NCBI GenBank assembly: GCA_020072965.1
Contig: JAIQFY010000042.1
Coordinates: 1-44,660, forward strand
DNA: 44,660 nt
Source of the DNA: Terriglobia bacterium
GTDB lineage: Bacteria; Acidobacteriota; Terriglobia; JAIQFV01
Reading direction: 5' to 3'
A program made the translations under genes and the position numbers. The notes below the pieces were generated by a model, which ran no database searches, was not told where the DNA came from, and was given only the letters and a program-made list of their open reading frames with translations. This document shows, one piece after another, positions 41,321-44,240 of the stretch. Each line of letters starts with the position of its first letter. The stretch's first letter is position 1.

Positions 41321-42016
41321 ATGAAAAAAACATATCTCTACACAGCCATAGCGATGATCTTCTGCATAGGCCTGGCTCTAACGTTTCTGTCCACCAGTTC
41401 GAGGGCCGGCGAGTGGGACAGGAAAACCGTCGTGAACTTCAGTGCGCCAGTCGAAGTTCCAGGTGTGGGCGCTCACAATTTGCCGGCGGGCACATATGTC
41501 TTCAAGATCTTTGATTCACTATCGGACCGCCACATCGTCCAGATCTTCAGCGAAGATGAAAAAACCGTGTTGACAACCATCCTTGCTATCCCCAATTACC
41601 GTTTGAAGACGACCGACAAAACGGTAATGACGTTTAGGGAGAGGGCGGAAGGGCAGCCGGAAGCCATCCGGGCGTGGTTTTATCCGGGGCGTCAATGGGG
41701 CGAGGAATTTGTATATCCCAAGTCAAGGGCTATCGAGCTGGCAAAGATAACAAATCAGCCCATTCTCGCGACCCCGATCGAACTGGATACAGCGCCCATC
41801 GAGGCTTTGAAGACGGCGCCGGTCATAGCTGTTGCCCCTACGGGAGAAGTGGTAGAAGTAGCTAAGGTGGTTGAGACTCCGCCGGTTGAGGTGGCTGCTG
41901 TACCCACGAAGAGCATGCCCCAAACGGCCAGCTCATTGCCGCTAGCGGGATTGATTGGGCTGCTGTCGCTGGGCGCAGGCCTTGCTCTCGTGGTTATTTC
42001 GCGGCGAGCTGCCTAA
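41321..42016 (+). CDS. Exported protein with LPXTG-like sorting tail
   Basis: A 231-residue protein behind AGAGGAAA. A signal peptide (YTAIAMIFCIGLALTFLS, cut after SSRA) precedes a beta-rich domain (about 30-135; VPGVGAHNLPAGTYVFKIFD). A Pro/Val/Ala-rich stalk follows (150-195). The C-terminus is MPQTA (199-203), then a 24-residue hydrophobic helix (LPLAGLIGLLSLGAGLALVV), then ISRRAA. This motif-helix-positive arrangement is that of a sortase substrate. A sortase gene lies 1.5 kb downstream on the same strand. The first residue of the motif is M instead of L. Function of the globular part unknown. Confidence 0.75.
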   Translation: MKKTYLYTAIAMIFCIGLALTFLSTSSRAGEWDRKTVVNFSAPVEVPGVGAHNLPAGTYVFKIFDSLSDRHIVQIFSEDEKTVLTTILAIPNYRLKTTDKTVMTFRERAEGQPEAIRAWFYPGRQWGEEFVYPKSRAIELAKITNQPILATPIELDTAPIEALKTAPVIAVAPTGEVVEVAKVVETPPVEVAAVPTKSMPQTASSLPLAGLIGLLSLGAGLALVVISRRAA

Positions 42017-42312
42017 GTCAGGCAAGTCTGTGTTTGAGTGGGCCACGCGTCAGGAGCACCGTCTTAACCCGGAGTGAAGTTGACGGGACTCCGGGAGATT
42101 GTGGGGGCGGAGGTTGATACACGAATACAACCTCCCCTGGCGGGCGATAGAGCCCGCCATCACCCGAACATGGGAACTTGAACACTGTTCCGATTTCATC
42201 AATGACTGGACGGGTCACGGATCAACCTGCAACGGCACAGCCTTCATAACCAAGGACAGGCCTAAGACTTGTCAGCGGTCCAACTTGATACGAGGAGAAA
42301 AACATAAAGAAT

Positions 42313-42510
42313 ATGCCCACACTTGGTGAATTTTCCGTTTCTTTGCTTGCCGCTTTGTGCGTTGTAACGCTACTCTTTGGCGTCTATGTGATGTGCCTCG
42401 TGCTCAAACAGGGTGGCAGTCTCCTGGGACGCCGAGCGCAAGCGCTTGCGAGTGGCGCCATTAAACTGAAAGGAAGATGGGTGGCCGATAAGGTTTCTTC
42501 ACGCGAGTAA
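42313..42510 (+). CDS. Small single-helix membrane protein (65 aa)
   Basis: A 65-residue protein with one N-terminal helix (FSVSLLAALCVVTLLFGVYV) and a basic C-terminal part (LLGRRAQALASGAIKLKGRW). GAGGAG lies about 15 bp upstream, rather far. No family recognised. It is between the sortase substrate and the VWA gene on the same strand and may belong to that set. Confidence 0.45.
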   Translation: MPTLGEFSVSLLAALCVVTLLFGVYVMCLVLKQGGSLLGRRAQALASGAIKLKGRWVADKVSSRE

Positions 42511-42588
42511 CAGTTCGCCTTCATCGGGGGGTGGAAGCTGAGGGCCGTGGGATTATTCAGAATCGGAGCACACTACAAGAGGGATTGT

Positions 42589-43560
42589 ATGGTCACTCGC
42601 CGATGTCTGGTCGCACTGTTCTACCTGATTTTTCTGTCCAGCGTTGTTTGTCCTCAAGTAGGCCCACCGGCAGAGAGCCGCCAAACCGATCCGTACACGA
42701 TTCGGATGGACGTTGAAATGGTCATCCTGCGCGCAACCGTGCAGAACCACAAGGGCGTTCTGGTTTCAGGACTGGGGAAGGACGACTTTCACGTCTATGA
42801 GGACGGGGTTCTCCAACAAATCACGTATTTCACCCACCAGGATATTCCGGTCACAGTCGGCTTGGTTGTCGACAATAGTGGAAGCATGAAGTCGAAGCGT
42901 GCTGAAGTTATTGCCGCCGCCCTGGCGTTCGCACAGTCCAGTAATCCGGAGGACCAGATGTTCGTGGTCAATTTCAACGAACACGTTTCCTTTGGCCTTC
43001 CAGCCGACACGGTGTTCACGGACCAACCGGCTCAATTGGCGGTCGCCCTTTCCCGAATTGCCGCAAACGGCGAGACGGCGCTCTACGACGCTATGGCGGC
43101 TGCGCTCGAGCACCTGAAGAAAGGTAATCGGGACAAGAAAGTGCTGATTGTGGTCAGCGATGGGGGCGACAACGCCAGCAAGCACACCGTGGAACAGATC
43201 ATGGCATTAGCGATGAGGTCCGATGTCATCATCTATACCCTGGGTCTATTTGAACCCGATGATCCCGACAAGAACCCCCATGTCCTCCATCAGTTTGCAA
43301 AGGCCACCGGCGGAAAGGCTTTTTTGCCGGATAGGTTAAAGGACGTGGTCCCCACTTGTGAGCAAATCGCGCATGATATTCGTAACCAATACACCATCGC
43401 TTATTCATCCACCAATGAAAAGCGGGATGGGAAGTATCGGGTCGTAGCGGTGAAGGCTGCGGCTTCGGGTGATGGACGCCTCATCGTTCGAACTCGTCCC
43501 GGTTACTATGCGCCCGACAAACCTCAACCCTCGCCGACCAGGCTGAGCAACAAACCATGA
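42589..43560 (+). CDS. VWFA-related domain protein (acidobacterial type)
   Basis: A 323-residue exported protein from ATG 42589 behind AGAGGGA. A signal peptide (CLVALFYLIFLSSVVC) precedes a small beta domain (VEMVILRATVQNHKGVLVSG, DDFHVYEDGVLQQITYF) seen at the front of acidobacterial VWFA-related proteins. A von Willebrand A domain follows with a complete metal site: D95-N-S-G-S99, T164 (NGETALYDAM) and D192 (SDGGDN). It probably mediates metal-dependent protein binding outside the inner membrane. Its stop overlaps the sortase start (ATGA), so the two are co-translated. No LPXTG-like tail of its own. Confidence 0.85.
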   Translation: MVTRRCLVALFYLIFLSSVVCPQVGPPAESRQTDPYTIRMDVEMVILRATVQNHKGVLVSGLGKDDFHVYEDGVLQQITYFTHQDIPVTVGLVVDNSGSMKSKRAEVIAAALAFAQSSNPEDQMFVVNFNEHVSFGLPADTVFTDQPAQLAVALSRIAANGETALYDAMAAALEHLKKGNRDKKVLIVVSDGGDNASKHTVEQIMALAMRSDVIIYTLGLFEPDDPDKNPHVLHQFAKATGGKAFLPDRLKDVVPTCEQIAHDIRNQYTIAYSSTNEKRDGKYRVVAVKAAASGDGRLIVRTRPGYYAPDKPQPSPTRLSNKP

Positions 43561-44240
43561 TCCCCAGAATCGGAGCGCACAATTCTCGTCGACGAGGCCA
43601 ATCGATCCTCCATTGGAGCCGAAACCTCTTTCTTGTCATTGGCACTCTTCTGTTGGTTTACGTCGGCTATGTGATGATCGATACGAGGATGTATCAGTCT
43701 CACGAAACATATCTATTCGAGCAGGCCTCGAAGAGTTTGAAGGTGTCCGCCGACGGCGATAAGAACCCTCCCCCGTCGCCCCTTGTGGCTCCCCTGGAGG
43801 AAGCGAACAGCGTGAAAGCCGTGGGCCCTGCCACAGCTGTTCACAGAGGCTTTCCAGTGGGGCGAATCGAGATCAGTACAATCGGCCTTGAGGCAATGAT
43901 CATGGAAGGTACTGACGGAGGGACCCTGCGACGCGCCGTCGGGCATCTTCCCGGCACCCCGCTGCCGGGCCAACGAGGGAACGTTGTGATCACGGGACAC
44001 CGGGACACGTTCTTCAGAGGACTGCGCAAGGTCACCAAGGATGATGAGATTACGTTGACGACGTTGGACGGCTCCTTCCGCTATCGCGTGGACTTCACCG
44101 GGGTCGTCGACCCCGATAATGTTTCAGTGCTGGAGGATTCCGAGGACGCTACTCTGACCCTCGTGACCTGTTTCCCATTCTATTATGTGGGTCCGGCTCC
44201 CAAGCGATTTGTCGTCCGTGCGCACAGGATTACTGGTTGA
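43557..44240 (+). CDS. Sortase, class D-like
   Basis: A 227-residue membrane-anchored transpeptidase. One N-terminal helix (LFLVIGTLLLVYVGYVMI, 24-41) precedes a linker and the sortase barrel. The catalytic set is complete: H148 in VVITGHRDTFFRGL, C205 in TLVTCFPF (the TLxTC motif) and R217 in APKRFVVRAHRI. Class D is my best guess from GHRDTFFRGL and the C-terminal FVVRA. Sortases cut at LPxTG and join the protein to an amine. The likely substrate is the MPQTA-tailed protein at 41321. Its presence in a probable diderm is notable. Confidence 0.88.
   Translation: MIPRIGAHNSRRRGQSILHWSRNLFLVIGTLLLVYVGYVMIDTRMYQSHETYLFEQASKSLKVSADGDKNPPPSPLVAPLEEANSVKAVGPATAVHRGFPVGRIEISTIGLEAMIMEGTDGGTLRRAVGHLPGTPLPGQRGNVVITGHRDTFFRGLRKVTKDDEITLTTLDGSFRYRVDFTGVVDPDNVSVLEDSEDATLTLVTCFPFYYVGPAPKRFVVRAHRITG

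Follow-up and report, generated by a model that had tools for sequence, protein, structure and literature searches.

A class D-like sortase and its dedicated substrate are encoded in one small cassette at the end of the DNA stretch analysed here (the window: 44,660 nucleotides, one whole contig, G000:C71, of the 5.9-Mb genome of a soil member of the Terriglobia, Acidobacteriota). As judged by sequence comparisons, this is a true dedicated sortase-substrate pairing and not a chance association, and it recurs across the Acidobacteriota. We consider it probable that the system works in the periplasm and joins its single substrate to peptidoglycan, most likely at the amine of meso-diaminopimelate (meso-DAP).

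The final 3.3 kb of the window carry four genes on the + strand, in the order substrate, small membrane ORF, VWFA protein and sortase. All the elements named by a sequence-only reading of this DNA were found where it had placed them, including the overlap between the sortase and a VWFA-related gene, in which the VWFA stop and the sortase start share the four bases ATGA. LptD is present in the genome, hence the host is a diderm, as that reading had considered probable. It did not mention the small ORF (42313..42510, +), which encodes a 65-aa membrane protein with one predicted helix; ORFs of like size and place and of variable sequence occur between substrate and VWFA genes in five close relatives and are absent elsewhere. 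An Rfam scan of the window returned no RNA, and promoter and terminator scans gave results near chance level.

The substrate gene (41321..42016, +) has a good ribosome-binding site (RBS) and encodes 231 aa, with a signal peptide (aa 1-29), an unannotated beta-rich domain (about aa 30-150), a flexible V/P/A-rich linker and a C-terminal sorting signal. Its AF2 model has a mean pLDDT of 88.5. The domain has no Pfam or PDB match by sequence, and DUF2911 matches 5 of 53 relatives weakly (best E 0.077), which is no more than a lead. Since Foldseek with the AF2 model returned nothing at E<=0.001 and the best VIA-align Z was only 4.8, no fold is named. The family set used below comprises 199 distinct relatives. 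When 84,980 species genomes were scanned, the 80 matches listed were all from Acidobacteriota by title save one, titled Planctomycetota (L168, JABDGM010000028.1). The cassette at this locus is the acidobacterial one, and in the VWFA tree it falls among Acidobacteriota; the record is probably mislabelled or misbinned.

The protein had been described as exported and ending MPQTA-helix-RR, and each of these parts is present. The sorting signal, MPQTAS-SLPLAGLIGLLSLGAGLALVVIS-RRAA (41915..42013, +), consists of MPQTA (aa 199-203, nt 41915-41929), a hydrophobic helix (aa 208-226) and RRAA. A strict [LM]PxT[AG]S-helix-basic tail is found in this protein only among the 238 window ORFs of at least 60 aa, and shuffled C-termini yielded one such tail per 156,900. 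We built a tail model (A1) from 25 sortase-adjacent proteins. Across these, the motif's P and T never vary, and the S, P, L and G of TASxxPLxGLLG are each conserved in at least 90%. The signal is a variant captured by none of the models tested: the motif, helix and basic end of the LPXTG anchor signal TIGR01167 are present, with a score of 11.4 to 13.0 below the cut-off of 15.9 bits; the tail scores 15.3 to 16.2 with NF058670 (LPxTATN signal; cut-off 32 bits), and the substrate 10.6 with TIGR03788 (VIT-VWA target; cut-off 551.65).

The M in place of L had been suggested to be an altered recognition motif. This idea did not survive comparison with close orthologues, which carry L: in the two nearest relatives, this gene encodes LPQTA and LPHTA. 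The first position is L in 22 and M in 3 of the 25 sortase-adjacent proteins; among the 80 loci listed, all 77 with a complete C-terminus are xPxT-tailed, with M at this position in 3 and A in 1. M recurs on separate lineages (3/25 and 3/77 relatives). From these alignments M is best read as a recurrent, tolerated variant that carries no new specificity.

The sortase gene (43557..44240, +) encodes a protein with an N-terminal membrane helix and a catalytic domain (aa 45-227) predicted to be extracytoplasmic. PF04203 matches it at E=5e-31 (107.4 bits, cut-off 26.6). The three catalytic residues noticed previously, His148, Cys205 and Arg217, are indeed all found, and they are invariant across 49 aligned relatives. 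The best curated match is NF058671 (class D, LPxTATN-specific), passed with 146.2 bits against a cut-off of 140; the scores for NF033746 (class D; 127.9, cut-off 165) and TIGR03784 (class GN; 94.8, cut-off 158.25) are below the respective cut-offs, and the class C model cut-off is not reached. The 49 relatives all match NF058671 at E<=1e-5 and all match both class D models; the class GN, C and E models match them too, with lower best scores. Among solved structures compared by sequence, 2ln7, which we take to be B. anthracis SrtC, is best by E-value and 4d70 (C. perfringens SrtD) second. In a fold comparison of the AF2 sortase model (pLDDT 87, N-terminal helix 8-67), 4d70 came top (Z 22.2, rmsd 2.3 over 153 residues), any row whose Z differed by no more than 1 being counted as a tie. 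The window sortase is class D-like by sequence and predicted fold, as had been proposed; we write 'class D-like' rather than 'class D' because one class D cut-off was missed. Membership of class GN was rejected, since the protein falls below the TIGR03784 cut-off and lies apart from the class GN clade in the sortase tree.

The VWFA gene (42589..43560, +) encodes an exported protein that matches TIGR03436 (220.6 bits, cut-off 81.25) and has an intact MIDAS-like set (DNSGS/TALYDA/SDGGD). The start listed for it, GTG 42547, is probably wrong; ATG 42589 was preferred as judged from the sequence around it, which offers a better RBS followed by a signal peptide. The C-terminus has neither a sorting motif nor a helix. 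The layout substrate-VWFA-sortase is the commonest among the loci compared; it is seen, for instance, at L062 in Bryobacterales F-183 (AP025252.1), where the substrate tail is MPATAS. VWFA is absent from some sortase-substrate pairs, and loci of Bryobacterales often have an inserted gene, malic-enzyme-like as read from its sequence. The genome carrying the window has more than 20 TIGR03436 matches. In the VWFA tree, 39 of 40 sortase-linked copies nevertheless form one clade (97/94) that excludes 20 unlinked copies from this genome; the VWFA of L056 sits on a long branch outside it. Since the sortase-linked copies form their own clade despite the abundance of VWFA genes in the genome, VWFA is a co-inherited partner and not a chance neighbour.

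If the pairing is real, tails of this kind should accompany the sortase in related genomes, a check proposed in the sequence-only reading, which would have been contradicted by sortases devoid of such tails. We examined 61 genomes (the window's own and 60 relatives), calling sortases by PF04203 and tails by A1 at E<=1e-3; the genome-wide tail counts are A1 matches and not a full proteome scan. A tail was found in 24 of 26 genomes with a sortase and in none of 35 without (Fisher p=5e-15, relatedness ignored). The two sortase genomes lacking a match are G054, which has a sortase fragment, and G057. Across 197 genomes of the phylum, a tail occurred in 32 of 40 with a sortase and 0 of 157 without (Fisher p=1e-29, or p=6e-27 minus the genomes used for model building, relatedness ignored in both). 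Most sortase genomes thus carry a tail, and several of those without an A1 match have a divergent one adjacent to the sortase, e.g. LPRTG, MPVTAG or APTTG.

Gene linkage gives a similar picture. A tailed protein adjoins the sortase at 25 of 31 class-level sortase loci, and the sortase lies downstream on the same strand at 59 of the 80 loci listed; at 9 of these 80 there is room downstream yet no sortase nearby. In the window's own genome, A1 finds exactly two tails, and each is adjacent to one of the two sortases. In three genomes of one family (f3; loci L049, L058 and L060), the sortase adjoins a substrate-domain protein lacking tail and helix, and tailed copies are found elsewhere in the same genomes. 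These tailless proteins keep VYPK, and their C-termini are basic, with the sequence QTARRKPQ in two cases. At another locus (L355:2851-4491), a sortase reading frame is overlapped by the gene for a tailless 546-aa protein that has the substrate domain and a long stretch rich in Pro and Cys.

The second pair of the genome, absent from the sequence-only account, is located on contig C82 (L035:7301-8811), where the overlapping partner of a sortase is a 265-aa protein with an LPKTGS tail, its C-terminus reading LPKTGSYLPLIGLLG. No Pfam family matches this protein above cut-off, and it is not related to the first substrate; pairs of this type recur at L052, L057, L059, L255 and L257. In the sortase tree, the enzymes paired with this second type of substrate make up one clade (100/98) and those of class GN pairs with VIT-VWA targets another, and the class D-like sortases form a lineage of their own, apart from class GN. 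This sorting by substrate type supports dedicated pairing. The class GN pairs found in Acidobacteriota are at L242:4704-7363 and L247:4633-7448, which both pass TIGR03784 and TIGR03788, and at L064:6506-9405, where the sortase passes TIGR03784. In addition, at L245:2497-5266, a tailed protein of 711 aa (MPVTAG), which contains a PG_binding_1 domain, lies beside a sortase scoring about equally as class D and class GN.

For cleavage, acceptor, location and the role of VWFA, we infer the following route. The signal peptide would direct export of the substrate, and the C-terminal helix would keep it in the inner membrane. Cys205 of the membrane-anchored sortase would attack the Thr of (L/M)PxT|A, freeing the helix, and the enzyme would transfer the substrate to an amino group, most likely that of the meso-diaminopimelate side chain of the peptidoglycan stem. 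The long flexible linker would then tether the beta-domain to the wall, and the co-inherited, exported VWFA may bind metal and act as partner to the tethered domain or to the envelope ligand of that domain.

Between periplasm and surface, both left open by the sequence-only reading, indirect evidence favours peptidoglycan in the periplasm. MurE of this genome carries DNPR, the signature of the meso-DAP type. In genome G019 (L287:1805-2728), the substrate domain is fused to an OmpA domain (PF00691, E=4.5e-11, 43.4 bits), a type that binds peptidoglycan non-covalently; this fusion, a single case at a contig end, points to the wall as destination. No sortase was found in G019 (92% completeness). 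In B. anthracis, SrtC cleaves LPNTA at the T-A bond and links its substrate to m-Dpm (PMC3297441).

The acceptor could instead be an amine of a lipid or a glycan, or a different protein of the envelope, and the substrate might then be displayed at the surface. Nothing observed fixes the acceptor, and the separation of the class D-like lineage from class GN leaves room for such a target. We nevertheless regard it as unlikely, as no outer-membrane export signal was seen, peptidoglycan with meso-DAP offers the usual amine, and the OmpA fusion points to the wall.

Less likely again is a pilus-like polymer, in which the sortase would join the Thr of (L/M)PxT to the lysine of FVYPK in the next subunit, giving a periplasmic or surface fibre with VWA as partner. 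The motif EFVYPK (aa 129-134; 41705..41722, +), at the end of the beta domain, presumably resembles the Gram-positive pilin motif. When columns were compared between tailed and tailless paralogues, its lysine was the one best separating the two groups (54/69 versus 5/22 after redundancy removal, p=4e-6; before it, among the 199 family members, 141 of the 159 tailed proteins in which the column could be read versus 5 of 27 tailless), and the other invariant, structural residues of the domain showed no such difference. The genes for VWA, subunit and sortase are also grouped as in pilus operons. However, the motif was noticed after the fact, and the lysine is missing from about one in five tailed proteins, sortase-linked ones among them, with R often in its place. 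A tree-based test of the lysine-tail association gave one supported independent pair only, so that relatedness may explain the pattern. Moreover, the VWFA has no sorting tail, in contrast to a pilus VWA tip protein with its own signal, and the sortase misses the class C model. If true, this reading would mean a pilus-like covalent fibre outside Gram-positives, in or on a diderm envelope. That the tail is a mere membrane anchor, the sortase being unrelated to it or solely a protease, is very improbable: some tailed proteins do sit far from any sortase gene, but the 157 plus 35 genomes free of sortase yielded no tail, and the invariant P and T are needless in a plain anchor.

Attachment of the substrate to peptidoglycan remains our preferred reading. 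In diderms, the known cases of covalent attachment to the wall are mainly Braun's lipoprotein and some outer-membrane proteins joined by L,D-transpeptidases (PMC8263019). Anchoring by a class D-like sortase that serves one dedicated substrate would add a second route, based on a sortase. The earlier remark that diderms rarely need wall anchoring has to be qualified as regards the rarity of sortases in diderms, since dedicated Gram-negative sortases (TIGR03784) have already been described (PMC3237569) and class GN pairs occur in this phylum. In openly accessible papers on sortases and Acidobacteria or Acidobacteriota (most subscription papers lay outside the search), we found no account of the system; the only related trace was a line in a table that gives the number of sortases in Solibacter. 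Dedicated Gram-negative sortases are known as a general idea; in the papers searched, we came across neither this lineage nor its substrate nor the VWFA partner. Acidobacteriota rank among the most abundant phyla in soil, about one in five of the sampled genomes has a sortase, and the substrate family has no Pfam name. The long-open role of sortases in two-membrane bacteria becomes directly testable in one small cassette.

Among known systems, the class D sortase SrtC of B. anthracis with BasH and BasI is alike in its LPxTA signal, its few dedicated substrates and a meso-DAP wall (PMC3297441). It differs in belonging to a monoderm spore-former and in having unrelated substrates. To our knowledge, it has no VWFA partner. 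With the NF058671/NF058670 pair, the likeness is on the enzyme side: the window sortase passes NF058671, whereas the tail, (L/M)PxT[AG]S-xPL and not LPxTATN, fails NF058670. Gram-positive sortase-assembled pili share the grouping of subunit, VWA and sortase and presumably the VYPK motif, but here the VWA has no sorting signal and the sortase is not class C by model. Finally, the class GN system (TIGR03784/TIGR03788) is also an adjacent dedicated pair in diderms, with one target and a VWA domain involved; there the target itself is the VIT-VWA protein, whereas here the VWA is a separate, untailed gene and the sortase belongs to another clade.
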